From: Spirogloea muscicola
Lineage: Eukaryota; Streptophyta; Zygnematophyceae; Spirogloeales; Spirogloeaceae
Direction of reading: 5' to 3'
DNA: 64,000 nucleotides
Assembly: GCA_009602725.1 (NCBI GenBank)
Contig: WELB01000237.1
Location: 124,956-188,955 of the forward strand
In this document: positions 17,701 through 57,223 of the stretch, piece by piece
Layout: each line of letters starts with the position of its first letter
How positions within the stretch are numbered: the stretch's first letter is position 1
Notes under the pieces: model-generated
The model's database searches: none
What the model saw: the letters and a program-made list of their open reading frames with translations, nothing else
Told to the model about the DNA's origin: nothing
Translations under genes and position numbers: made by a program

Positions 17701-19616
17701 CGCGCCGGCGCGGCAGTGGCGCCGTCTCCGGCGACGAGCTGCTGCGGCGGCTCGTCACAGTTCGTCACGCCAGCAGGCTTCGCCTGGTCCTAAGCAGACG
17801 ACGGCGGCGGTCCCAGTGGGAGGGCGGCGCCGCGCGCGCCGGCGGGCGCGGCGGCGTGGGGCGGCTGCGCAGCGAGGAGGGGGTCCTGCAGCGAGAACTG
17901 GGGCCTTAAACCCTCTGTCCCGGAGAGAGGGGAGGGTTTTAGGCTGCCCGGGGTGGTTCGGGCAGGCAGCAGGAAAATCCATTAAGCGGCGGGGTTTGCG
18001 CTGACTGCTGCCGTCAAGCCGCTGTCACCGGGGCGCCGGGACCTCCCGCCGGACGTGGCCCTCGACGTGGCGGGCAAGGGACCACGTTGGGAGGAGGACA
18101 CGTGAAGGCCGGAATGGCCAGAATGGTTGACGGCGGCCATTGCGGGCTACCGTCGGCAGCGGAAGATTGTCGAAGGTTGAAACGGCGTGCCAGCGGCCGG
18201 GCAGAAGCCCCTGTGAGTTTGACCTTGGCCATTGGCCTATGTTTGTTTCAAATACACGGAATTTTATGTGAGGTGAGGGGAGATGGAGCGTTGAGCGGGC
18301 AGAGAGGCAGGGCTTGGGCCAGTATTCAGCAATTCTTAGGCCCCTCTGAACCTTTGTCCATTCTTTCTGGGCTGGCTTTGCTGGCCCCCTTTCTCCCCCT
18401 CTTTTCCCCCCCCCCCCCCGCTCCCGACCGTTGGGAGCCCGCGCCCGCCGCTCGCGCCGCCGCCGTCGCCGCCGCCGGCGGCGANCTAGTCTGTCGGATC
18501 TGAGGCTCCTCACTCGTACTTATTGAGTGATCCATCCTCCCCCTGTTTTACCATTGCATCCTCAGGCCCCTTTGTAGCTGCTCACCGCGCTTAGGCCCCT
18601 CTGACCCTTTGTGAATTCTTTTTGGGCTGGCTTTTCGCAGCCCTTGCCCCCATTGGGAGTGCCAATTCTTCTGAAAGGCGACCGTGGAACAGACGGCCGA
18701 AGACCACCAACTCAAGGTCAAGTCGACCACTGGGTCGAATGAACGGCCCTGAGAGACCACCCTTTCTCTTAGCCAACCAGCGAACAGCGCACCTAGCCAA
18801 TTAGGTAGCGCTAGGGTTTCACCTTAGGGCTTCGCCTGGCTTCCCCCCCCCTCTTCTTGTACTCTGTTCATTCTTTTTTGGGCTGGCTGTTCCAGCCCAT
18901 ATTCTCAGTGGGCGAGCCCTTCTTCTTCAACGCATCCGGCCCATGTCGGAGCGCGCGAGCCCTGCCAAGCAGTTCGCTTGGCAAATCTCACCCTCCTGCC
19001 GCGCCTGCACCCACCGCGCCTGTGCCCACCAAGCCTGCGTCTACTCGCGCCTGCGTTCGCGAGAGAGCAGAGCCCGCCGCCCACGGCGTGTGCGCTTAGT
19101 GAGCGTTGCGCGAACCCGCTAGCGGCTGCGATAAGTCGTCTTTCTTCTGTGGTGAGCAGCTTATCATTGTGCTGTTCTTGCAAGTCTTACCTTCGGAGTG
19201 CTGTGCTCATTGCTTGAGCACACGTCTTTGCATTGGTTGCTTGTGTGCATGTAAGGCGCGCCTTTCGGCCCCTTTACAATATTCACAAAAGGCGCGCCTT
19301 TCGGCCCCTTTGAATATTGGTGAACCTAGATAGGGCCGGTCTTCGGACGCTCGTGTGACTGAAATACTGGTGACGGGAAAGTCGAGATACAGTGGCACGT
19401 TACTTTTAAACTACAGATTGAAAGTCGACTGTTCTTGACTTGTCCATGGTGCTGTGATGTCTGGCATGGTTCCTTAGCAGATGGATTTTCATGACAGTCT
19501 GGTCAAAGTAGCCAATATCCTCGTTTGGCTTGTCTGTACACCAGACTAGCAAGTCAGCATTTCCCTTCTTCTAGACCTGTCGACGCCACCTCGCACCGAC
19601 GCCCTCGCGCGTGACA
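17701..19616. other. CCT6 5' flank, contig join and repeat-rich spacer
   Basis: The first ~500 bp are GC-rich and contain the CCT6 promoter region; no defined element was identified. A single N at 18485, inside a GCC-rich stretch, may be a contig join. From 18345 to about 18925 there are at least three copies of the interspersed repeat core (see 18345-18925). At 19253-19315 a 20-odd-bp motif starting GGCGCGCCTTTCGGCCCCTTT is repeated in tandem. No supported gene. Confidence 0.5.
18345..18925 (+). repeat. Cluster of interspersed repeat copies (GGGCTGG hairpin family)
   Basis: Three copies of a family that recurs through the window begin near 18345, 18600 and 18850. The shared order is GTCCATTCTTTTT, then GGGCTGGCTTT(N)CAGCCC, an imperfect hairpin, then CATTGGGAGAGCC or CTCAATGGGCGAGCAC. 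Copies differ in completeness. They directly flank the truncated end of the TIR pseudogene. Confidence 0.6.
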
Positions 19617-21757
19617 CGGTGCTCAGCGGTCCAGGCCAGGCGGTCAGCCAAATGCAGCGCATCTGAAAGTCGCCAGAGCACGAAGCCAAGGTGGTGTACC
19701 AGACGCAAAGCAGGGCCCTCCACAAACGTGCCAGCAGGTCCTTAGAGAGTGCAAGCACAGGCTCCTGAGAGTGGCTGCCCAGAGCAGCATGGCTGGCATG
19801 GTGGCAGTGCTCAAAGTGCGTGTCCACGGAGGCGAAGGAGGTACAGAGGCTAGCCACCATGGCTGTGCCGGCCTCGGTGCCACCCTTAGCCTTGCCGTAT
19901 TCTTGCACAAGGTGGTGAAGATGAGGGAGCTGTCGCACTTGGCGCGCCTCGCCATGCCGTAGTGCACAAGCAGCCGCACAGCCTCGTCCACTGCAGCTGG
20001 CTTTTGCCGGTTCACTGCGGCCTCGAATCGACTGTGGGGTCTACCTGGCCCTTGCCGGCTTGCCTCCTCTGCTTCCACTTCCTCCGCCAATCTTGTTCTG
20101 AACTTCTGAGGGGCCAAGGACTTGCTACGATCACCGTCGCCCTTCATGGCCCCCTCTTGTCGTCTTGATCGATCTTGGACTCTGTGCGAATCTGGCGGCG
20201 CAGTGGGCCGCATAGTCTGCCGGATGCTTGGGAGCAGGGCGGCAGTCTGAAGCAACAGGGGTACTGGAATGGGCACACCAGCAAACCAGCCTGCAGCATG
20301 TGCCATGTCGACAGCGAGCCTGAGCTCGGGGGCAAAGTTTTCATTGCACTCCAGTAGCTCAATGCTCGCATCGAAGAGGCGCACCAGGTCAGGGTGCGTC
20401 CGGAAGACAGGGTCTCCAGGCTCAGCAGAGAAGGTTTGCGAGCCTTCGGCTTGTAGTCATTGCAGGAGGCGCGAGGGCAGCATGGCGCAATGAGCAAGCT
20501 GCCGCCGGCAGAATGCCAGGCTGAGTGTCAGGTAGCCCAACCTGCCAGCAAGGTCCTCTGCAGCCTGCAGCTCCTCACTGCCCAACTCCTCGTGGCCGAG
20601 CAGCAGCGCCATGGCGTCGCAGTGGGCCAGCATGTCGAGCGGGAGTTCTGCGAAGTTGGAGACTCCACTCAGACGGGTCGTGACGAGGATGTGGCACGCT
20701 TCGCCAGTGGCAGCACCTCCGCCAACACAGTATTATCGCGCTCCAGGTTGTCCAGGACCAGCAGCGTGGGCCCACCGTCGGCCTCAAGTGCGCGCCCTAC
20801 AGCTTCCACATTCCGCTTCTCTGTGTCACAGCCTGGCAATGGCGGCTGCAGACATAAGCCACCGTCTGCCATATGTGCTGCTCCCTCCTCCTCCGTTCCT
20901 TGCGCCAGCTCGACGCCTAGAGGCTTCGCGAGGCCGAGGAAGGCAGCTGCAAGCCTGGACCCAGAAGCGTCCAGCCAAAGAATGCGCGAGTAGCCGCTGC
21001 GGTGCTTGTGCACGTATTCAAGCGCAAGCTGCGTCTGCCAATGCCAATGCCGGCGAGGCCGTATTTGGCCGCGCGGCCATGGCGTGCCAGCAGCTCGTGC
21101 AGCGACTCCAGCTGCGGCGTGCAGCCGACGAACTCGACATTGCGTGGGAAGGGCGTGGTGTCGATGGTGGTGGGCGTGGGCGGCGGCCGGCCGAGGCGCT
21201 CACATGCGGAGCGCACGGCCTCGTCGACGCACAGGTCCCAGTTGCCTCCATGGTCGCTCAGCTTGTCCATCGTGACCGCAGCCACCCTTGCGACGTCGCG
21301 GCGCCAGGCCGCCTCGTCGCCGCCATAGCATTCCCACAACGGGCTGCCGTTGCAGCCGGGCTCGCTCCACACGCCCCGCCGTGCTACGATGCGCTCGCCA
21401 TCCACATCGCTTGCTCGAAGACCCACAAGGAACGGCAGAACGCAGCTCTGGTCGAGGAACACCTCCAGCTCCCGCATGCAATCGCCGCTTGCAAAGAAGT
21501 CGCGCGACAGCACGACGATGCCCAGGCGCGCAGATTGCGAGGCGGCGCGCATTAGAGCGGGGGCATCGTCGCCGGGCTCCAGCGACCGCTGGTCGAAGAA
21601 GACGGCCAGGCGCTGCCGGCGCAGCTCGCGCGCCAGGAACGTGCAGAAGTCGCGCTTGGTGTCCGGCCCGCGGTGGCACAAGCAGACGTCATACGGCTGC
21701 TGGGGCGCCCCCCGCGGCCCTGGCGGCGGCTTTCACGGAGTGGAGCTGCCGGCCATG
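19617..21757 (-). pseudogene. TIR-NB-ARC pseudogene, truncated before the TPR domain
   Basis: Inverted, decayed copy of the intact gene at 32385. The sequence corresponding to the start codon is at 21757, followed by a premature stop within ten codons. The TIR part (CHRGPDTKRDFCTFLARELR, with CMREL carrying the catalytic-Glu position) is well preserved. The P-loop region near 21040 reads GLAGIGIGR and shifts frame, so the nucleotide-binding lysine is lost. Later NB-ARC segments (TLLVLDNLERDN; AVDMAHAAGWFAGVPIPVPL) are readable only in other frames. Similarity stops near 19617, just where the TPR array would start. Upstream similarity to the flank of the intact gene continues to about 22140, so this was a segmental duplication followed by decay. 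Confidence 0.85.
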
Positions 21758-22924: not shown

Positions 22925-23075
22925 GTGGCATGAAATACTGAGCTTCCATCTGCATCGTCTCGTGTCTGGTTGTGTAGTTTTCTTTTCGGCACCTTTTTTG
23001 GCTTTTAGACAGTGTCCATTCTTTTTTGGGCAGGCTGTTCGCAGCCCTTGCCCCCCCCCCGTTGGGAAAGCCACG
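22925..23075 (+). repeat. Interspersed repeat copy, near full length
   Basis: It reads through CTGAGCTTCCATC, GTGTAGTTTTCTTTTCGGCACC, TTTTTGGCTTTTAGACAGTG and TCCATTCTTTTTTGGGC, then a GGCTGTTCGCAGCC hairpin. The same order is found reversed at 31743-31890, and in part at 27455-27550. It lies 80 bp upstream of the start of the second TIR locus. Confidence 0.65.
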
Positions 23076-23154
23076 TTCTCTTTTTCCCAAGGCGCTTTCC
23101 TACTTTCCCCCGCACGCGGGCCCACTCTCCTCGGGCCGCCTCCCAGCAGCCGCC

Positions 23155-26100
23155 ATGGCCGGCCGCCGCTGGCCGCCTTGGCGGCCCGCGCCAGGCCGCT
23201 CGGGGTCGACCGCGCCGCCATTCGACGTGTTCCTGTGCCACCGCGGGCCGGACACCAAGCCCGACTTCTGCACATTCCCGATGCGGGAGCTGGAGCGCCA
23301 GCGCCTCTCCGTCTTCCTCGACCTGCGGCGGCTGCAGGCCTGCGACGACGCGCCCGCCGTGATCAGCGATGCCATGAAGACGGCGCGCCTGGGCATCGCT
23401 GTGCTGTCCCCCAAATTCTTTGCCAGCAGTTGCTGCATGCGAGAGCTGGAGTTCTTCCTCGACCGGCGCTGTGTGCTGCCCATCCTTGTGGGCCTTAGCG
23501 CGAGGGACGTCGATGCTGACGACATCGTGGAGCAGCGGGGCGTGTGGAGCCAGGCCAGCTGGGAAGGCGGCCGTCTGTGGGAGGGCTACGGCGGCGATGA
23601 GGCAGCGTGGCGCCGCATCATTGCTCTCGTGGCAAACGTGACGATGATCAAGCTGAGCAACTACAAGGGAGAATGGGACCGGTGCATCGACGAGGCCGTG
23701 CGCATCGCTTGCGAGCGCCTCGGACGACCGCCTCCAGACTCCACCACCCTCAACACCACACCTTTTTCGCCAAATGTTGACTTCCTTGGCCGCGAGCCGC
23801 ATACTGGAAGACTTGCACAAATTGCTGATGGCCCACCATCGTGTGGCCGTCGGTGGCCTCGCCGGGATCGGCAAGACGCAACTCGCAATTGCTTCCGTCT
23901 ACCAGCACCAGAGCCAATTTGTGCGCATCTTCTGGCTGGACGCCTCGAGCTCAAGGCCTGCGGCTGCCTTCCTCGGCCTTGCCGAGCCGCTGGGCATCAC
24001 GCTTGGTGAAGGAAACGAGGACGTGGACACTCTGCCTGCAGGTGATGGCTCATGTCTGTGGCCGCCAGGCCACCCGCATATTTCACAGGCTTCACAAAAT
24101 CCACTGTAACTACGATGCGTTTGTACTTGTTTCCATGGAGATGGAATGTTCTGCACAGTCGTCAATGCAAGTCCTCACCTCCATTGCCCAATTGCGCAAT
24201 GTCAGGCTGCGACACAGAGAAGCGGAGTCTGAAAGCCGTGCGGATGGCCCTTGAGGACTGCCACGGGTCTACGCTGCTGGTCCTTGACAACCTAGAGCAC
24301 GTTGATGCTGCGCTGGTCGAGTTGCTGCCAAATAGTGAGACGTGCTGCATCCTCGTGACAACGCGTCTGTACGGAGTTGCCAGCTTCAAGGAACTACCCA
24401 TCGAGAAGCTGGCCGATTGCGACGCCATGGACCTGCTGCTTGGTCATGAGGCCAAGGAGCTGAGCGCCAAGGAGCTGGAAGCAGCACGAGAACTTGCCGC
24501 ACGGCTGGGTTACCTGACGCTTAGCCTTGCTGTCTGCCGGCGGATGCTTGCTCATGGCGGCATTCTGCCCTCAAAGCTTCTGCAACGCTTGGAAAATAAA
24601 GGTGTAAGGACCTTCACTAATGAGCCCATGGATCCCTTCTTTCGGAAGCACCCCGACCTCATGCGACTCTTCGACACAAGCATCGAGCTGCTGCAGAGCA
24701 ATGTCGATTTTGCCGCTGCGCACAAGGAGCTGGCAGTCAAGATGGTGCACGTCGCAGGCTGGTTTGCAGACGCGCCAATACCAGTATCACTGCTGGCCTT
24801 GGCTTCTAATCCGCGGATCAGAGAGGAGGGAGGCCTGACAGAAGGAGACGCCTTGGATGATGTGGAAGAGGCGGAGCGATTGCTGGTACGGTATGACATA
24901 GCGAGGCGCGACATGTGCGGCTCCCTCATCTTCCACCACCTTGTACAAGACTACGGAAAGGCCAAGGGCGGCGCAGAGGCTGGCACAGCCATGGCGTCCA
25001 GCCTTTGCATGTCCAGTAACCACCTAGACACACACCTCGAGCACTTTCACAATGCCATTGATACATTGATATCGCTCTTGGCAGCGGTACTCGGCTCCCC
25101 GCACTTATGGTCCCTGAGGAACCACTGGCAGGCTTCGTGGGGGACCCTGGGGTGCAGCTCGTCCACTTCGTTGGCCACACGCTGTGGCAGCCGTCACGCG
25201 CCCTGCAGATTGCCGATCGCCTGGCTTGGGCGGCAGAGTACCAGCTGCAGGCCTTCCCAGTCATCCGCCACAGAGTTTCCGAAGCGAGGTGTTCTGTGCT
25301 GATCATACTTGGACAGCACGCAGAAGCGGAGCAGCAGAGCCGGCACGCACTGGAGCTGCTGAGGCAAACGGCTGACTTCGAGCAACTCACCAGCTACTTA
25401 CTGCTGGCGCATGCCAAGTTTTTGGACTCTGACGACAAGTACGAAGAAGCAGAGCAGGCATGCCGGGAGTCCCTGAAAACTATTAAGCGCTTGCATGAGG
25501 AGCCAAGGTTGGTCGTGAGGACGCTTGGGCAGCTTATGATGATCTGCAGCAGACAAGGAAAGTTCCACGAAGCAGTGGAACTCGCTCAGCAGGCCGTCAA
25601 AATTGAGAGAGAAACCTGGGGCCAAGTGCAGAGTCTGCAGATATTAGAGCGACTGGCAGATTTCCTGCTAAAAGTTGGCCGCTATGCAGAGGCAGCGGAG
25701 CATGCACGCAACAGCTTGGCCATGTGCCAAGAGCTACACGGCCCGAGCAGTCCTCGTGCTGTCTTCAGCCTCACCACATTGGCCACCTCTTTACTGAAGC
25801 AGGATGAAGTAAGCGAGGCGGAGGCTACGATATGTGGGGCTTGGACAATCTTGGAGGGCTCCAAGATCGTGGACCCTTACAGGCTTGTCGACCTGGCCGT
25901 TGTCTTTGAGCAGCTTGGCAACCTCACTAAAGCCGAGGACCTGCTTCGCCATGTGGTGGAATTTACGGCATCTAAGCTTGGGTGCCAGCACGAATTCATG
26001 GCTGCAGCATCTGTCATCTATGCAGGCCTGCTCATGCGCATTGGAGACGAGCCGCGGCTACAAGAAGCAGAGAATCTGCTCATATCCTCTCTGCCAATCA

Positions 26101-26507
26101 TGCGTAGTCTCTTTCAAGGCAGAAGTACCAGAACGCAAGAACACGTCGGTTTGGTTGGCACGCTGGATAAGCTGGCTAGGCTACGCATCAAGCAGCATCG
26201 TCCTGAGGAGGCAATGAGATTGCTGCAAGCAAGCATCTCAATTGCCGAGCAGATCCAACACAATGGATATTTCACAGAGGAAATTTAGAGCTTGTATGAA
26301 TCGTTGCTCAGGTTGCTGCACGGGGAGCTCTGCTCTGGAGAACAAAAGACCCTCATATTCAAGATGCTTCAAAGTCAAGGAGAGGGCCACGACCATGCAG
26401 CTACAGCCGAATTAACAATTCGCCTCGACACCTTCATGGCTCGTAACGACCGGTTGCAGAAGCTGCTCTATGAAGTGATAACTGCATACGAGGCCATACG
26501 TGCTTAG
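23155..26507 (+). pseudogene. TIR-NB-ARC-TPR paralogue, disrupted
   Basis: Second member of the TIR-NB-ARC-TPR family, clearly diverged from the 32385 gene. From the ATG at 23155: TIR (FDVFLCHRGPDTKPDFCTF; CMRELEFFL keeps the catalytic-Glu position), linker, P-loop GLAGIGKTQLA, kinase-2 STLLVLDNLE, LVTTRLYGV, NB-ARC tail, then TPR repeats to about 26507. The frame changes near 23800 and again near 25090, and an in-frame stop at 26286-26288 precedes further TPR-like sequence (YESLLRLLH). A 164-bp segment absent from the paralogue interrupts the NB-ARC at 24042-24205 and has intron-like ends. With about three breaks I call it a pseudogene, although assembly errors cannot be excluded and the motifs themselves are intact. 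Confidence 0.75.
24042..24205 (+). other. Intron-like insertion in the TIR paralogue
   Basis: Relative to the 32385 gene, extra sequence begins shortly after CTGCAG and ends just before GCTGCGACACAGAG. It starts GTGATG and ends GTCAG, and splicing these ends keeps the NB-ARC phase (DTLPAG|CDTEK). Its first ~25 bp match sequence that is coding in the paralogue. It could be a real intron, or an insertion that happens to carry splice-like ends. Confidence 0.5.
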
Positions 26508-28589: not shown

Positions 28590-30589
28590 TTAAACAAAAT
28601 TACTTGGAGGAAATTGCTTGGTATCTTCAGATCCACGTCTTTGTCTCAATGCTGAAACAACCTCATCGCATACGCTATGCAACTGCTGATGCCAATTATC
28701 AACCCTGGTAGCACGATCGTCTGCAGACTGTGCCTCCAGCTGCTCCAGATACCAATACTGCAGCGGCCGATTGTCATGCGGCTCATATGGCCGGCTGCCA
28801 ATGGGAAGGAGGTATGGGCCGGACTCTTGGTCCAAGCTGCACCGGTAAAAGTTGGCAAGGTCAATGGGCTCCACCAACTTGCGGTAATTCCGTGCCCGAG
28901 ACAGCCACTCCTTGTCACGACTGAAGAAGTCCTGTGGCAGTTGTCCTTCGCTTGCCTTTCTGATGGCACCTTGCCAGAATCGCAGAAGTGTCTTCCGGTC
29001 TTCGCGGGCTGCTTTGAAGGCAGAGATCTCAGCATCAAGTGCTCGTTCCCTTCCATTCTGCTCCACCATTCGGGAGGCCGCTTCAAGACTGTCACCCAAT
29101 GCAAAGTGTACGTAGTATGGGGGCAAGCGCTGATCTTGGCAGAGTCGCTGATACTGATGGAAACGGCCAATGGCCTCCTGCGCGCCAGCATAGTCCAGCA
29201 AAAGGTTGCCCTCCGCCTGAACCCTTCTCGCTGTCACTTCCTTTTCCAATTGCAGCTGTTGACTTTCCCACCTTGACTCGTCCTTAGCCTGGCCAGTGAC
29301 TGCAATGCTCAGGGAAAGCACATTCTGCAGCCGGTCAATGTCCTCCTCGTACACCGCCAGCCTCGCGCTGTAGGCCTGTGCTGCTATGGCCTGCAAGTCC
29401 AGTGAATATGATATGCAATGAACTTCGTAGGAAAACAAGCTATCAAGGCATTGCCTGGTGAAATCATACCAGCTTTGCGCAAAGTCGAAGGACAGGCAAT
29501 GTTACAGCAAGCAGGTCGCATTTGCTAAAATAAGCCAGAAAAGCGTAAAGTGCAGTGTCATTCCTGCTCCTCTGCCTGCCCCAGCTAACCTTGCGTGGAA
29601 AGTTGAAGCGCCAGTGCTTCAAGTAGGCACGGATGAAGACGACTGTGCGGCTGGCGACCCAGAGCAATTCCTTCACAAGTTCTCTGTGCTCCGAGGAGGC
29701 TTCGATTTGCTTCAGTATTGGGAGGAGCAGCGTGACGGCCTTCAACACCTTACCCATCTGCTCATCGGTGGCGCCCTTGGCCTTCAAAGCAGCGGCAACG
29801 CTACGCACAAGCTGGAATGCCACGCCCACCATATGAACCTGCGCCACATGATGGCAATGATTGTGGATTACATTGTGCTGATGAGTCGAGACCGACTTAA
29901 GTGTCCCACACTGCGGATGTCCCTCGAATCTGTGCACAGTGAGAATCAAAGTTGATGGCCAAGTTTGTGAACTTGAAGTGGGGAGGGCAAGTAGGTCAGC
30001 CAACATCTCCTTCAATACATCTCCTTCTATACAAACTACGCTGGCTCAGCAAGCTGGCATTGCCCAAAATGCATAGGCTGACGTTGCAGCGGCTACAAGA
30101 TGTCAACTGCGCTAGGCTGATTGGCCTAGGGCTGGGTTATGGCAGCCAAACCTGCCCCAGTATGCCCAAGGTGCTGTCGACGGCCTGGGCCACGACGTCG
30201 CCCCACATTCCCGATAGCTTAGCTGCGTCGTCGGTCATCTCCACTCCTACACTCAGCACAGAGTCCACGATCGAATCCACTTTCTCAACACCAGCCAGCA
30301 GGCCTTCCAGCTCCAGGCCGCGAGTCTCGTCCTCCGAGAGGGGCTCTGACAGGCCACTGTGCTGCTCCTCATCTATCACCTTGCTGCCACTGGCAGTTGT
30401 GGGCTTGTCGAGCTGTGCACGAGAACGACTTTCATTCGCTCCTGCTGGCGGCAGACGTGCACCTGCGTCCGGAGTGCCCTTGCCTGGCAACGTGACAGGC
30501 GGTCCCTTTGCCGGCTGGGCCTTGTCCAGCGGAGCAGCCGTCTCGGGCGTTGCATCTTCGACAGCGGCGGCGGAGAAGCAGACGCCCAT
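28590..30589 (-). CDS. N-myristoylated helical protein with an EDS1/PAD4-type EP domain
   Basis: Three minus-strand exons (30589-30152, 29838-29590, 29390-28590), all phase 0, give 495 residues. MGVCFS at the N-terminus is a strong myristoylation plus palmitoylation signal, predicting membrane attachment. Residues ~8-100 are polar and Pro/Ala-rich. Residues ~110-229 are amphipathic helix (LLPILKQIEASSEHRELVKE), loosely like RPW8 or HeLo/MLKL four-helix bundles. Residues ~250-480 match the EP domain known from EDS1, PAD4 and SAG101: PPYYVHF (319-325), RFWQGAIRK, QLPQDFFSRDKEWL, YRKLVEPIDLANFYR (398-412), GPYLL and SRPYE. Arabidopsis EDS1 has QLPDEF, YRRLVEPLDIANYHR, GPYM and GRPTRY at the same positions. 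There is no lipase-like domain. TIR-NB-ARC loci lie on both sides. The EP call is firm; the bundle is tentative. Confidence 0.85.
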
Positions 30590-30897: not shown

Positions 30898-30986
30898 NNN
30901 NNNNNNNNNNNNNNNNNNNNNNNNNNNNNNNNNNNNNNNNNNNNNNNNNNNNNNNNNNNNNNNNNNNNNNNNNNNNNNNNNNNNNN
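30898..30986. other. Assembly gap (89 N)
   Basis: A run of 89 N follows a poly-G stretch and precedes a GA microsatellite, so the true length and linkage across it are not shown by the sequence. Confidence 0.99.
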
Positions 30987-31114
<128 letters not shown>

Positions 31115-32384: not shown

Positions 32385-35300
32385 ATGGCCGGCAGCTCCA
32401 CTCCGTGGAAGCCGTCGCCAGGGTCGCCGGGGGCGCCCCAGCAGCCCTATGACGTGTTCTTGTGCCACCGCGGGCCGGACACCAAGCGCGACTTCTGCAC
32501 GTTCCTGGCGCGCGAGCTGCGCCGGCAGCGCCTGGCCGTCTTCTTCGACCAGCGGTCGCTGGAGCCCGGCGACGATGCTCCCGCCGTGATGGCCGCAGCC
32601 ATGAGGACGGCGCGCCTGGGCATCGTCGTGCTGTCGCGCCGCTTCTTCGCAAGCGGCGATTGCATGCAGGAGCTGGAGGTGTTCCTCGACCGGAGCTGCG
32701 TGCTGCCGCTCCTTGTGGGTCTCCGAGCAAGCGATGTGGATGGCGAGCGCATCGTAGCACGGCGGGGCGTGTGGAGCGAGCCCGGCTGCGACGGCGGCCC
32801 GTTGTGGGAGTGCTACGGCGGCGACGAGGCGGTATGGCGCCGCGACGTCGCAAGGGTGGCTGCAGTCACGATGGACAAGCTGAGCGACCATGGAGGGAAC
32901 TGGGACCTGTGCATCGACGAGGCCGTGCGCTCCGCGTGTGAGCGCCTCGGCCGGCCGCCGCCTACGCCCACCACCATCGACACCACGCCATTCCCATGCA
33001 ATGTCGAGTTCCTTGGCCGCACGCCGCGGCTGGAGTCGCTGCACGAGCTGCTGGCATGCCATGGCCGCGCGGCCATATGCGGCCTCCCCGGCATCGGCAA
33101 GACGCAGCTCGCGCTTGAATACGTGCACCAGCACCGCCGCGGCTATTCGCGCATCCTTTGGCTGGACGCCTCTGGCTCCAGGCTTGCGGCTGCCTTCCTC
33201 GGCCTCGCGAAGCCTCTAGGCGTCAAGCTGGCGCAAGGACCGGAGGAGGAGGGAGCAGCACACATGGCAGACGGTGATTTATGTCTGCAGCCGCCATTGC
33301 CAGGCTGTGACACAGAGCGGCGAAATGTGGAAGCTGTACGGCGGGCACTTGAGGGCGACGGTGGGCCCACGCTGCTGGTCCTGGACAACCTGGAGCGCGA
33401 TAATGCTGTGATGGCGGAGGTGCTGCCAACTGGAGAAGCGTGCCACATCCTCATCACGACTCGTCTCAGTGGAGTCTCCAACTTCGCAGAACTCCCGCTC
33501 GACATGCTGGCCCACCGCGACGCCATGGCGCTGCTTCTCGGCCACGAGGAGTTGGGCGGTGAGGAGCTGGAGGCTGCAGAGGACCTTGCTGGCAGGTTGG
33601 GCTACCTCACACTCAGCCTGGCATTCTGCCGGCGGCAGCTTGCTCATGGCGCCATGCTGCCCTCGCACCTCCTGCAACGCTTGCAAGCTGAAGGCTCGCA
33701 AACCTTCTCTGCCGAGCCTGGAGACCCCGTCTTCCGGACGCACCCTGACCTGGTGCGCCTCTTCGATGCGAGCATCGAGCTACTGCAGTGCGATGAAAAG
33801 TCTGCCCCAGAGCACAGGGAGCTGGCCATTGACATGGCGCATGCTGCAGGCTGGTTTGCTGGTGTGCCCATTCCAGTACCCCTGTTGGCCCAGGCTGCCG
33901 CCCTGCTCCCAAGCATCCGGCGGACTCTGCAGCCCAGTGCGCCGCCAGAATCGAACAGAGTCCAAGATCGCCCACGACGACAAGAGGGGACCATGCAGGG
34001 CGAGGCAAGCCGGCAAGGGCCAGGTAGACCCCATAGCCAATTTGAGGCCGCGGTGGACCGGCAGAAGCCAGCTGCAGTGGACGAGGCTGTGCGGCTGCTT
34101 GTGCACTACGGCATGGCGAGGCGCGCCAAGTGCGACAGCTCCCTCATCTTCCACCTCCTTGTGCAAGAATACGGCAATGCTAAGGGTGGCACCGAGGCCG
34201 GCACAGCCATGGTGGCTAGCCTCTGTACCTCCAGCGCCTGCGTGGACACGCACCCTGAGCATTGCCACCATGCCATCCGTGCTGCTCTGGGCAGCCACTC
34301 TCAAGAGCCTGCGCTTGCACTCTCTGAGGACCTGCTGGCACGCTTTGTGGAGGGCCCTGCTTTGCGTCTGGTGAACCACCTCGGCTTCGTGCTCCGCCGA
34401 TACTCAGATGCGCTGCATCTGGCCGACCGCCTGGCTTGGACTGCTGAGCACCGCCTGCATGCCCTTCCAGCCGTCTGCGCATCTGTCTTCGACCGGAGGT
34501 CGTGGGTGTTGGGCGTACTCGGACGATATACAGAAGCGGAGCAGCTGAGCCGCCGTGCACTGAAGCTTCGGCGCAAGCTGCAGACCACTGAGAAGTCCAC
34601 GCAGCTCGTCTGCCAGTCCCTAATGATGCTTGCCAGCCACCTGCGCAGCAACGGCAAGTACGTCGAGGCGGAGGAAGCATGCCGTGAGGCACTGGAGATC
34701 CGAGAGCTCCGCTTCGGCAAGCAGCACAGCCTGGTGGCCACGACGCTCAACCTGCTCGCTGAGCTCTGCCACAACCAAGGGAAGCACAGCGAGGCAGAGG
34801 ACCTGGCCCTGCGTTCGCTCAGCATCCGACAGGCAACATCGTCAAGGTCAAGCCGGTTGTATTGCGCCACACCGCTCGGTCGGCTGGCGATAGTGCTGGA
34901 GACCGTTGGCCGCCATGCAGAGGCGGAGAGGTATGCAAGGGAGAGCCTGGCCATCCGTCAGGAGTTCCTCAGCCCGCGCAGGCCAGAGACCGCCATCTGC
35001 CTCACCACGCTCGCTGCCACTCTGGCATCACAGGGGCGGCTGGCCGAGGCCGAGGCCAGGGCCCGCGAAGCACGGCGCATCTCAGAGGACGCCAATGGCG
35101 TGGGCCACCCGGTCACCACATTTGCGCTTGAGGGCCTGGCCAACGTGCTCAAGCTGCTTGGGCAGCCCTTCTTTGCTGAAGCAGAGGACCTGTTCTGCCA
35201 GGTTGTGGAGATTCGTCAGGCGAAGCTTGGGGGCGAGCACAGCTTGACGGCAACCGCATACCGCGACCATGCCGACTTGCTCATACGTGTTGGCGAGCTA

Positions 35301-35918
35301 CGGTGGACCCAGGCAGAACAGCTACTCAGGTCGGCACTGCGTGTCCAGCGAAGCACTCCAGCCGCTGCCTCGCCAGGCGACCTCCAGCTGGCTCGCACTC
35401 TGGCAAAGCTTGCAGAGCTCTACCTTGAGCAACAGCGCTTCGAGGAGGCAGAGCCGCTGCTGCGAGAGAGCATCTCCATTACAGAGCAGGTCCTGGGCAG
35501 CATGCATGCGGAGACGCAGCACCTGTATGAGGCTCTGCGCAGGTCGTTGCAAGGTCAGGAAAGCTATGTGGAGGAAGAAAGCATCATCCGAAGTATTCTG
35601 CAGATCCAGGCCGAGGAACGAGGCCACCGAAATGCGTGCTCTAGCCGCCTTTTCGTGCGCCTTGGCTCCTTGATGACTGGCGATGGGCGCTTGCGGAAGG
35701 CGCTTGAGGAAATGAGCGTCGTGCTGGAGGCCAAGCGTGCTGAGTTGGGTACACAGCACTCTGATGTCAAGAGCCTGGCAAGGAAGGTCGGTGCGCTTTG
35801 GCGTCTGCAACTGCTCAGTGCTGCCTCCATGAGGAAAAGTAAGGACTCTTGCTTTCACTTTCCAGACCCACTCATTACAACATCAGACTTCTCTTATCCT
35901 GCCCATACTTGTATCTGA
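32385..35918 (+). CDS. TIR-NB-ARC-TPR immune-receptor-like protein, intact
   Basis: One continuous 1177-residue reading frame. TIR domain at about 22-170: PYDVFLCHRGPDTKRD, and CMQELEVFL with Glu96 at the catalytic position of plant TIR NADases. NB-ARC at about 215-500: GLPGIGKTQ (P-loop, Lys239), TLLVLDNLERD (330-337), ILITTR (356-360), and LGYLTLSL in place of GLPL. A polar linker (about 510-560) precedes TPR-type repeats (about 640-1130; for example YTEAEQLSRRALKLRRKL, KYVEAEEACREALEIREL). This is the TIR-NB-ARC-TPR (TNP) class known from plants and algae, not LRR-bearing TNLs. Likely an ATP-switch sensor producing NAD-derived signals; the ligand is unknown. A GTAAGG at 35839 could be a donor, so the last ~25 residues are uncertain. 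The EP-domain gene is divergent upstream, across a gap. Confidence 0.93.
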   Translation: MAGSSTPWKPSPGSPGAPQQPYDVFLCHRGPDTKRDFCTFLARELRRQRLAVFFDQRSLEPGDDAPAVMAAAMRTARLGIVVLSRRFFASGDCMQELEVFLDRSCVLPLLVGLRASDVDGERIVARRGVWSEPGCDGGPLWECYGGDEAVWRRDVARVAAVTMDKLSDHGGNWDLCIDEAVRSACERLGRPPPTPTTIDTTPFPCNVEFLGRTPRLESLHELLACHGRAAICGLPGIGKTQLALEYVHQHRRGYSRILWLDASGSRLAAAFLGLAKPLGVKLAQGPEEEGAAHMADGDLCLQPPLPGCDTERRNVEAVRRALEGDGGPTLLVLDNLERDNAVMAEVLPTGEACHILITTRLSGVSNFAELPLDMLAHRDAMALLLGHEELGGEELEAAEDLAGRLGYLTLSLAFCRRQLAHGAMLPSHLLQRLQAEGSQTFSAEPGDPVFRTHPDLVRLFDASIELLQCDEKSAPEHRELAIDMAHAAGWFAGVPIPVPLLAQAAALLPSIRRTLQPSAPPESNRVQDRPRRQEGTMQGEASRQGPGRPHSQFEAAVDRQKPAAVDEAVRLLVHYGMARRAKCDSSLIFHLLVQEYGNAKGGTEAGTAMVASLCTSSACVDTHPEHCHHAIRAALGSHSQEPALALSEDLLARFVEGPALRLVNHLGFVLRRYSDALHLADRLAWTAEHRLHALPAVCASVFDRRSWVLGVLGRYTEAEQLSRRALKLRRKLQTTEKSTQLVCQSLMMLASHLRSNGKYVEAEEACREALEIRELRFGKQHSLVATTLNLLAELCHNQGKHSEAEDLALRSLSIRQATSSRSSRLYCATPLGRLAIVLETVGRHAEAERYARESLAIRQEFLSPRRPETAICLTTLAATLASQGRLAEAEARAREARRISEDANGVGHPVTTFALEGLANVLKLLGQPFFAEAEDLFCQVVEIRQAKLGGEHSLTATAYRDHADLLIRVGELRWTQAEQLLRSALRVQRSTPAAASPGDLQLARTLAKLAELYLEQQRFEEAEPLLRESISITEQVLGSMHAETQHLYEALRRSLQGQESYVEEESIIRSILQIQAEERGHRNACSSRLFVRLGSLMTGDGRLRKALEEMSVVLEAKRAELGTQHSDVKSLARKVGALWRLQLLSAASMRKSKDSCFHFPDPLITTSDFSYPAHTCI

Positions 35919-54000: not shown

Positions 54001-56898
54001 CGACATGATTTGTGCATTGGGCCCCTGATCGAGCACCTGAGATTGGAGCCCCCATAAGCAAGCAGGAAGTAGAAAACTCCTGTTGTGTACAGGCGCGCCA
54101 TGGCCCGTGGATTGTGCCGCATTGCTGCCTCCAAGAGTGAAGCTGCCCCAGCAACTACTGCAGGTTCACCGGTCAAAATGGACTGCAGAAAGATCCAGCA
54201 AGGAAAGCATAAGTGGCCACGATGGTTGCAGGCAAAGAAAAGCGAATGTGATGGTCTTGGGCTGCAGGAGCAAAGTGAGACCTGCGCAACATGAGGCAGG
54301 CAGCGCAGGCTGGAGAGGATGCGCTTCACGATCGGCGTGGGCGTGACGAGCTCGCCGCCCTCGTCGAGGTCCGTGTGGACCGCCAACAGCTTGTTCAGGA
54401 TCCCCAGCACAACCTCTCCGACCTTCATACGCACTTTGGACAATGACAAGTCAGCACCTCCCAGCTATGTCTCACTGCCTTCGCTGCAATTCATGCTCTG
54501 ATGCCTTCAACTTATGACTGTATCCAGTTTGTTTGGGGTCGATTGTGAAATGGCAGGAAGACAGCAGAGAGTGTCAGAGCATGGGAGACTGCAGTCAGCG
54601 TGCGACATTTGACGAGCACCTGGGCAGGCGTGAGGACTGGCGCTTTACTGGCAAGCACCCATCGCAGCTCGCGGACGGCGTGCAGCGGCTGCCAGCGGGG
54701 CATGCCTGCGGCCCAGCATAGATCCGACCAGCCAACCTCCTTCTTGAAGAAGGCCCGGCGGACAGCGTCCTTCTCCACAGGCCCCACCCGGCTGCCGTCT
54801 GCCAGCTGGTAGCACCACTCCTTGGGCGGCTCCGTGTATGCCTTTGCCGCGATCAGATTGGACTGCAAACACATGGCCCACGTGACCTCTTGGCAGGAGA
54901 TTCGAAGCAAGACAAGTGATTCCCTAATCTGTCACTGAAAAATGTACAGCTCTAGCTGGAAGAAGCAAACGACCTTGCAAAGTTGCCCGAGCGCGTAGGA
55001 AAAAGTCTGTAGAAATATACAAGAGCAAGCGAGCGAGCAGTCGAGCAACGGAGAGAGTGCAAGTTGGGGGGGGGGGAGTGGAAGAGACCTCACCTGAAGG
55101 GGCACAGGGGCTCGCTCTGATGCCTCATGGGCGGTCGTGAGGAGGTCAACGCAGAGCTCACAGCCACCCGCCGAAATACATGCCTCGGCATTCTCGGGCA
55201 CCGACACGAGGACCTGCCTCACCGAGCAGGTTGCTTTGAGGAGAGGAATCTTTGCAAATCTTCGTTCTATTTGAGACTTGATCGACGATGCTGTCAGCTG
55301 TGGTCAAGTCCATCGTGTGATCAACAAAAGACATGACGCTCTAGACAAATTGTACCATGGCAATCAGCATAATGCTGCAGCTATGCCCTTGCCTTGAGGA
55401 GGAGTAGCAGGCGGTGACGGAGCGCACGGTCGCTTGTGCGGTCCAGCAGCACAGTCATGTGGGCAGTGCCATCAAAGGGCCCAATAGCCGGCCCGTGCCC
55501 CTCGTAGACGATGGCCATGGCCCGCGCACACAGCTCCCGGATGCTGGCGCCGCTGCCGCCGCCGCCGCCCTTGCTGACCGCGGTGCTGTAGCCCTCAAGG
55601 CTGCCAGTGACAGCTCCATTGCTGTTTGCTGGACCATCATCTCGGTCGTCCTCGAAGCCCTCCGGCACAAGGCCCGCGTCAGCGTCACACATGAAGCGGT
55701 GGTAGAGCGCGGCAAACAGGCCGGTAGCGTCGTGCAGCGGCAGGAGCGCCTCTCCAGATGCAAGCGCACGATCGTCGAGCAGAAGGCGCAGGTAGTAGTG
55801 CCCGACACACAGCTCGCGGGCGAGGCTTGGGTACAGTACACGGAACTCGGCAAAGTTCCAGCTGATGAGCTCACCGCCAGCGCCACCACTGCCGCTGCTG
55901 GAAAATTCTGCCAACAACCGCTCACGTTCAATGTTGAGGAGATGCACCTCGCCTGCCAGCGCCTCGCGTAGCTCCTGCCGTGTGCGCTCATTCCAGATCA
56001 ACGCCGCACGGCTGTGGTCACGATCGAGCTCCCGCCAAAGCGCGCCCCAGTTGAGCGAGAGGCTCCCAGTGGCCACAGGCGCCGGCGCTGATAGCGGCGG
56101 CGGCGGCACCGGCGTTGACTCCAGCGCAACAGCCAGCGGAGGAGAAGGCCCTGCCGCTCCAGAGTCGGCCTCTTGACGCAGCATTTCCGGAGAGGCGGCG
56201 GCAGCTTCCGCTTGAGCATTCTGGTCGCTGGGCCTCTCTGCAGCGCTTCCAGAGGCTGGCAGCGGCAGCGGTGTGCCATTGGCCGCATGAGGGTGGACGG
56301 ACAGTGGGAGCTGAGCGCTGGCAGCAGCTGCAGCGCCGGCGCTAGCGGCAGTGGCGGCTGCCCGAAGGCCGGCTGCGACCACGGGGCCCACCGCCATGCC
56401 CGATGTGGTGATGACACTTGCCAGCTTGCTACCAGCGGCAGCGGTGGCCCTCGGGCTGGCTGCGTCCATGGCCAGGGTCGTCGAGCCAACCCTCTGGCGT
56501 CCCCGCCGCTGCTGCAAGACGCGCCGCAATGGCCCCTCGCTCTCGTTCCTGCTGCCACCGTCCTCAGCCCCACTGCCATCGAGCCCTGGGTGCTGGTGGA
56601 GGTATGCCAGGAGGCCGGGAGGGAAGCAGCGGGACAGCAGCGCCTGCGCCGGCTGATGGCCGTCTGCCCATAGTGCAACGAGCTGCCGGCTGACGTTGCG
56701 GCGCTCGTCTGTTGCTGCAGATACTGCAGCTGCCAAGTGGCGCAGCAGCGCACCATCGCGCAGAGCAGCATCGCGCATGGGCTCTGCTGCCGCAGCGTCC
56801 TCCTCGGCGATGACACGCATGAGGCCTGCCACGCGCTCGCGCACGCCTTCGGCCGGGTGCCCAAAGAGCGCAAACAGCCGCCGCCGCAGGCCCGCCAC
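48091..56898 (-). CDS. GRV2: RME-8 / GRV2 (DNAJC13) endosomal J-protein, 5' truncated
   Basis: Endosomal J-domain protein that recruits Hsp70 for sorting and vacuolar trafficking. Twenty exons on minus (56898-55393, 55213-55094, 54862-54620, 54422-54282, 54182-54037, 53943-53652, 53501-53195, 53096-52966, 52846-52275, 52087-51766, 51653-51544, 51422-51065, 50950-50718, 50452-50340, 50153-49819, 49678-49229, 49107-48983, 48810-48687, 48570-48502, 48360-48091) give about 1988 residues. They track plant GRV2 from [12 protein letters not shown] to the Pro/Ser tail: [20 protein letters not shown] (GYF-like), the J domain [54 protein letters not shown]. Three introns start with GC. About 600 N-terminal residues of plant relatives are missing; the frame runs up to 57033, just before the N at 57228, so the true 5' end is probably lost at a join. 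Confidence 0.93.
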
Positions 56899-57223
56899 CT
56901 GCATGTGATATACACCGCCCGTCATGCTGGTGATGCTGCATTGCAAGTTACTGAGGTGCAAAAATGCCACGGAGCAAGGTAACGAGCTCCACGTGCCTTG
57001 GACCACCAGTGTGAGAAAGAAGACCAGGGCCATGCTCAGGCAGACCAGCGAGGCGGTACAAGAGGAGAGGGGAAAGGTATGAGGAGTAATGGTGGGAGGT
57101 CGGGGCTTCTGTTGGGGTTATACCTGGAGGGAGCAGGTTAGCCCAAGCAGGGGTGGACAAGGCAAGGAGGGGCAGGTGGAAACTGAGAGCAAGAGAGAGG
57201 GGGTAGGACAAGGAGGGGCAGGA

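Follow-up and report, generated by a model that had tools for sequence, protein, structure and literature searches.

The EP domain has been described as one that "uniquely defines the EDS1 family" (PMC9806590). A pocket made by two EP domains binds TIR products, and helper NLRs are recruited (PMC12856790, PMC10442000); the basic EDS1 cavity residues K440/441, K478 and R493 have been reported to matter (PMC6377607). In the available text of these and related papers, EP proteins are given for gymnosperms and angiosperms only (PMC10834447), and EDS1 is stated to be absent from seed-free plants, with EDS1-independent responses probably early (PMC11218826). As EP proteins are placed in seed plants only, TIR signalling in algae and seed-free plants is believed to proceed independently of EDS1 (PMC11218826). 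The same is thought of the TNPs of land plants, which occur in plants without EDS1 and had no orthologues in the algae tested by those authors, according to the part of the paper available (PMC9806590). NLR-like proteins with TIR or CC/RPW8-like domains have been reported from streptophyte algae and a chlorophyte, and so, on the accessible text of that report, algal TIR-NLRs are not new (PMC10952240). Among the listed titles and abstract openings of a mainly open-access literature on EDS1 and EP proteins and on algal or seed-free TIR-NLRs, none reported an EP domain in an alga.

Here we describe a gene with an EP-type domain in an algal genome of 153 Mb and 471 contigs. The gene is in a stretch of 64,000 nucleotides on contig C237, which was analysed as a whole and is referred to below as the window.

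Structure of the EP gene and its protein

The gene (the EP gene) is encoded on the minus strand of the window, with the following features.

28590-30589, minus strand: EP gene, three exons encoding 495 aa
30152..30589, minus strand: exon 1, residues 1-146, with the MGVCFS tail, a low-complexity linker and the start of the N-domain
30572-30589, minus strand: MGVCFS tail, in exon 1
from 30322 downward, minus strand: start of the N-domain at residue 90, within exon 1
29590..29838, minus strand: exon 2, residues 147-229, N-domain; its GT-AG borders are also found in the copy on contig C92
28590..29390, minus strand: exon 3, residues 230-495 and stop codon, with the end of the N-domain followed by the EP part
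29193-29390, minus strand: end of the N-domain, within exon 3
28725..29009, minus strand: EDS1_EP core, residues 357-451 (PF18117, E 1.5e-12; PAD4 and EDS1 matched in the PDB, SAG101 weakly)

The two introns (313 and 199 nt) are both GT-AG and in phase 0, and this splice model is predicted from the open frames and from conservation between copies.

A search of the 495-aa protein with the Pfam EDS1_EP profile (PF18117), the check that had been suggested in the first-pass annotation, gave a significant match (E 1.5e-12; 48 bits, with the cut-off at 23.1), and the five motifs quoted in that annotation were all present, in the order claimed and all inside the matched region. The annotation had aligned about 230 C-terminal residues with the EP domain; this proved too long, as only 95 residues (357-451) were recognised, covering positions 32-112 of the 211 in the profile, and positions 113-211 were unmatched in the Pfam search. 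We therefore refer to this region as an EP core and not as a full-length domain. A phmmer search of PDB sequences placed rice PAD4 (2.4e-9) and rice EDS1 (3.2e-8) at the top, and also found Arabidopsis EDS1 (7xdd_B, 4.5e-7) and, weakly, SAG101 (0.042). Identities in the printed alignments were 30/82 for rice PAD4, 29/82 for rice EDS1 and 21/60 for Arabidopsis EDS1, i.e., 35-37% to seed-plant EP within the aligned core. The homology of the predicted EP core is well above chance, and the annotation was borne out in placing an EP-type domain in an alga, with a Pfam match over the cut-off and PAD4 and EDS1 first among PDB sequences. AlphaFold2 models made from single sequences of contiguous unspliced stretches were of low quality, with mean pLDDT values of 46.8 and 50.2.

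EDS1_EP was the sole Pfam-A family in the whole protein at E values up to 10, in agreement with the absence of a lipase-like domain noted at first pass. Also as noted there, the EP part is located behind the MGVCFS tail, whose acylation is putative, and an apparently helical region. Genome-wide there were 35 Lipase_3 matches and none of them was on the five contigs with copies of the gene (C237, C92, C157, C263 and C218), in an exon-by-exon search that split domains could escape. The survey in PMC10834447 used, in the part of its methods available, lipase and EP models and subsequently retained those clusters in which known EDS1, PAD4 and SAG101 were present, and surveys of this design could overlook an EP gene that lacks the lipase part.

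Residues 1-295, comprising the MGVCFS tail and the N-domain, had no family match. The first ten residues, MGVCFSAAAV, are identical in all three copies compared (C237, C92 and C157), even though the stretch of residues 1-89 drifts overall. MGxxxS with a cysteine at position 4 presumably fits the consensus for N-myristoylation plus palmitoylation, and the tail is likely a membrane anchor, albeit a putative one. A profile search of PDB sequences with the N-domain gave a best E value of 0.38, and scans of six of the nine N-domains in the genome found no match to RPW8, MLKL or HeLo. The Pfam matches that did appear among those six (Peptidase_U4, 0.0013; MotA_ExbB, 0.032; Put_Phosphatase, 0.11) were each confined to one member and were rejected as chance. 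RPW8 had no match in the whole genome at E values up to 1, again in an exon-by-exon search that split domains could escape.

Alignment of N-domains from six of the nine loci showed that the diverged members are 27-36% identical to that in the window and share invariant W, F, Y, R and I/L positions at regular spacing. Reading the sequence by eye, we interpret the N-domain as probable amphipathic helices. That it may be a four-helix executioner is suggested by where it is located, by the motif for acylation and by the general character of its sequence; as the domain had no convincing Pfam or PDB match and the genome no RPW8, its fold and role are guessed from position. We give even chances to the N-domain carrying out a response at the membrane. 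The predicted joining of an EP core to this N-domain is a real and surprising domain architecture.

The EP core shares with EDS1, PAD4 and SAG101 a score above the Pfam cut-off, a common G-[PS]-Y and, with EDS1, the motif Y-R-[RK]-LVEP-[LI]-D-[IL]-AN, and the gene is tied by linkage to TIR-NLR genes. The protein differs from that family in having the MGVCFS tail and an apparently helical domain in place of the lipase-like domain, in the remainder of the EP model being unrecognised, and in lacking the EDS1 cavity lysines. In the alignment, with the chain numbering of 7xdd_B taken as residue numbers, K440, K441 and K478 of EDS1 are replaced by S376, E377 and L415. In rice EDS1 and PAD4 the residue opposite R430 is the first R of R-R-Y, a motif of which one R presumably corresponds to R493 of EDS1. 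Because a lipase-like domain, the full EP length and the three cavity residues were not found, we do not file the protein as a member of the EDS1 family.

The replaced lysines bear on what the EP core does. That it binds a TIR-made nucleotide is a tentative suggestion, which we consider possible but short of probable. An alternative is that the EP core mediates protein contacts or regulation within a protein of NLR type, with no binding of TIR-made nucleotides, and that it became the nucleotide receptor only after fusion to a lipase-like domain in seed plants. The absence of these lysines is in keeping with this, as are the lack of any of the 35 Lipase_3 matches on the five contigs with N-domains, the genome without an RPW8 match and the recognition of the EP core only. 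We nevertheless regard it as rather unlikely, given the close linkage to TIR genes and a dN/dS of 0.17 in the EP part, a constraint at least as strong as that on the neighbouring TIR protein (0.23).

Copies, selection and host lineage

The EDS1_EP profile had two matches in the genome, both over the cut-off, on C237 (47.3 bits) and C92 (44.2 bits). In the C92 copy the exon borders are unchanged and the reading frame is complete, at 493 aa. Between these two copies dS was 0.197 and the overall dN/dS 0.23; by part, dN/dS was 0.91 for residues 1-89, 0.11 for residues 90-295 and 0.17 for residues 296-488. The EP gene is under purifying selection, in both the N-domain and the EP part.

A protein search of the genome gave 17 matches on the five contigs, each of which is 171-570 kb in length. 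Frames around these matches were read by eye, giving nine N-domain loci: one on C237, two on C92, two on C157, three on C263 and one on C218. EP sequence is recognisable at six of the nine; it is intact in C237 and C92 and broken by stops or frame changes at the second C157 locus and the three C263 loci. The C263 copies (C263:55124-73698) are diverged and flank a broken TIR-NB-ARC gene on both sides, and their N-domains look better preserved than their EP parts. That a land-plant sequence was brought in by contamination or assembly error is barely credible: no supporting sign was seen in the contigs, the copies are on five contigs of the lengths given, there is no lipase part, and identity to land-plant proteins is low.

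At one locus (C157:298839-299903) the third exon of the N-domain ('...QFESEVTARRVQAEAKLMLN') continues in frame into an NB-ARC domain ('CLPPDTTIINTTPFPQNVDFLGRE...'). This NB-ARC belongs to the TIR-NB-ARC-TPR family, and the N-domain there replaces the TIR domain. This one damaged locus suggests that the N-domain can serve as the N-terminus of an NLR. The domain thereby resembles the NLR-like proteins of streptophyte algae, in which an N-terminal domain is joined to an NB-ARC, as far as the available parts of the reports describe them (PMC11218826, PMC10952240). It differs from the CC/RPW8-like domains described there in having no demonstrated sequence match and in being joined to EP in the intact copies. 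Exon 2 of the C157 copy contains one inserted base, its frame is broken further on, and its dN/dS values of 0.28-0.43 indicate looser selection; for these reasons the copy may be decaying, or the joining may be a chance recombinant.

This chimera, together with the decayed or partial copies on C157, C263, C218 and C92, would be in keeping with the EP gene itself being a functionless recombination product of an NLR cluster. The two complete copies, with dN/dS of 0.11 and 0.17 in their N-domain and EP parts at a dS of about 0.2, make that explanation very improbable.

Relatives outside this genome were sought in prokaryote genome contigs, where 24 stretches fitted the pattern and none was confirmed by tblastn, and in viral contigs and phages, where none was found. 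As the collections consisted of prokaryotes and viruses, this search says little.

The first-pass annotation had taken the host for a trebouxiophyte. This was not upheld: the psaB scores and an insert in the small-subunit (SSU) rRNA gene point to the Zygnematophyceae, which are streptophyte algae. The plastid contig (C392) carries psaA and psaB. Against PDB sequences, psaB scored 1627-1623 bits with 8htu, 9lut, 6l35 and 7ksq, followed by a group at 1594 to about 1529 bits, and then 6zzx and 6ijj at 1524 and 1519 bits. We take the top group to be moss (9lut excepted), the next to be seed plants, 6zzx to be Chlorella and 6ijj Chlamydomonas. One of the three SSU 3' ends (C139; L060 120-619) has 500 nt between AAGTCGTAACAAGGT and TTCCGTAGG, at the 1506 site. 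This insert matched the full group I intron model of Rfam with an E value of 4.6e-9; its score of 40.9 bits falls short of the gathering score, which is 50. The other two SSU 3' ends (C33 and C264) are without the insert and gave partial SSU matches only. A group I intron at 1506 is the zygnematalean SSU intron in the available text of a Spirogyra paper (PMC3527229). A trebouxiophyte origin was rejected on the group I intron insert and on psaB scores that were lowest, among the groups cited, with 6zzx and 6ijj. The host is probably a zygnematophyte, to judge from these sequences, which support the class well. Many light-harvesting matches occurred as sets of similar score, each spread over two or three contigs. 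The triplicated genome reported for Spirogloea muscicola, in the part of that paper available (PMC7994812), would be consistent with such sets, and that species is a conjecture for the host.

With a streptophyte alga as the probable host, horizontal movement of the EP segment into (or out of) the alga has to be weighed, as a segment acquired in this way would be uninformative about the ancestor of land plants. Since the available texts record EP proteins from no group other than seed plants (PMC9806590, PMC10834447, PMC11218826), vertical descent requires losses in bryophytes, lycophytes and ferns. We consider transfer improbable, however, since identity to seed-plant EP is just 35-37% in the aligned core the alga has several diverged and decayed copies, and the gene has an N-domain and introns of its own.

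Linkage to TIR-NB-ARC-TPR genes

Three genes with TIR and NB-ARC domains were identified in the window, one of them intact.

32385-35915, plus strand: intact gene for a TIR-NB-ARC-TPR protein of 1177 aa, facing the EP gene head-to-head
32448..32687, plus strand: TIR match of the intact gene
33072..33497, plus strand: NB-ARC match of the intact gene
22978..26288, plus strand: second TIR-NB-ARC-TPR gene, broken into several frames
19546..21732, minus strand: third gene, with TIR and NB-ARC, likewise in several broken frames

The EP gene and the intact TIR gene run in opposite directions with 1795 nt between their start codons. The intact protein has a TIR match of 50.6 bits, many TPRs (TPR_12, 162.1 bits) and an NB-ARC match close to the cut-off of 23.5 bits (24.7 bits in the genome search, 22.8 bits in the protein). 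Its TIR domain is plant-like, with Arabidopsis AT1G72930 as the best PDB match (5.1e-12), and its CMQEL preserves the Glu that plant TIRs have in C-x-x-E-L, which we take to be the catalytic Glu. Compared with a copy on C218, the gene had a dS of 0.170 and a dN/dS of 0.23. In domain composition, which was compared here and is distinct from orthology, it is like a land-plant TNP (TIR, NB-ARC and TPR). It is unlike the TNPs in that those are considered EDS1-independent in the available text of PMC9806590, whereas the gene in the alga adjoins an EP gene.

In the upstream region that the EP and TIR genes share, positions 30898-30986 are N and (GA)n occupies positions 30987-31112. The broken frames at 22978-26288 and 19546-21732 may reflect decay, introns or assembly errors. 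Elsewhere in the window, an RME-8 N-terminal domain (PF19432, 6.2e-47) at 55384-57117 on the minus strand marks an ordinary eukaryotic gene.

The genome search gave eight TIR matches, three of them inside the window, and 18 NB-ARC matches that were grouped into 12 loci. Upstream of the NB-ARC there is a TIR domain at ten of these loci and the N-domain at the C157 locus; the twelfth, a fragment at C218:161714, was left out of this reading. All nine N-domain loci, including the gene in the window, are 19-11,144 bp from an NB-ARC match, and a single random gene would have a chance of about 0.0025 of being no more than 15 kb from one of the 12 NB-ARC loci. The C218 locus is near a 60-residue NB-ARC fragment only, and if this fragment is disregarded the next match is 13.1 kb away. 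In the protein search of the genome, N-domain matches were absent from C14 and C31, which have NB-ARC genes. As the nine loci are duplicates of each other, the linkage amounts to one strong observation and not to nine independent ones.

On C92 and C263, too, the arrangement relative to a TIR gene is head-to-head, with the TIR genes broken. The one next to the intact EP gene on C92 (approximately 172000-174900) is broken within its TIR part, suggesting that the EP gene has survived its neighbor at that locus.

A proposed signaling role and its evolutionary meaning

Starting from the observed EP-core homology, architecture, selection and linkage to TIR-NB-ARC genes, we propose that the EP protein may be a two-part immune signaling protein of the TIR-NLR locus. 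The neighboring TIR-NB-ARC-TPR protein would detect a trigger and oligomerize, and its TIR domain would then use NAD+ to produce a nucleotide signal. This signal, or the active TIR complex, would be sensed by the EP core, acting singly or as a dimer, and the anchored N-domain, thereby freed or clustered at the membrane, would execute the response. For the scheme as a whole we see the prospects of its being right and of its being wrong as evenly balanced. Signaling from the TIR protein to the EP protein, taken by itself, we think somewhat probable. Counted against the mechanism are the absence of K440, K441 and K478, the unmatched EP positions 113-211, the N-domain without a convincing family match, the damage to the C157 joining, the origin of the linked loci by duplication, the EDS1-independence attributed to TNP-type proteins of land plants (PMC9806590), and the two contigs with NB-ARC genes and no N-domain match.

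The proposed arrangement resembles that of the ADR1/NRG1 helper NLRs, which have an RPW8-type N-terminus, in that an N-terminal signaling domain and an EP domain would both take part in a TIR pathway. EDS1 dimers and a helper NLR, as separate proteins, divide sensing and execution between them in seed plants, whereas in the alga, whose genome has no RPW8 match, both would be combined in one polypeptide.

A wider reading, which we hold tentatively and rate below an even chance, is that signaling from TIR-NLR to EP predates land plants. An early form would have had a membrane-anchored executioner and an EP receiver in one protein, encoded head-to-head with a TIR-NLR producing its signal, and seed plants would later have split these functions into lipase-bearing EDS1 dimers and helper NLRs. 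With a selectively constrained EP core next to a TIR-NLR in a streptophyte alga, the pathway's origin becomes open to testing, and the questions arise of whether an EP core alone can act as a sensor of TIR products and whether the N-domain is an executioner. Together, these findings suggest that the EDS1-type branch of plant immunity may predate land plants.
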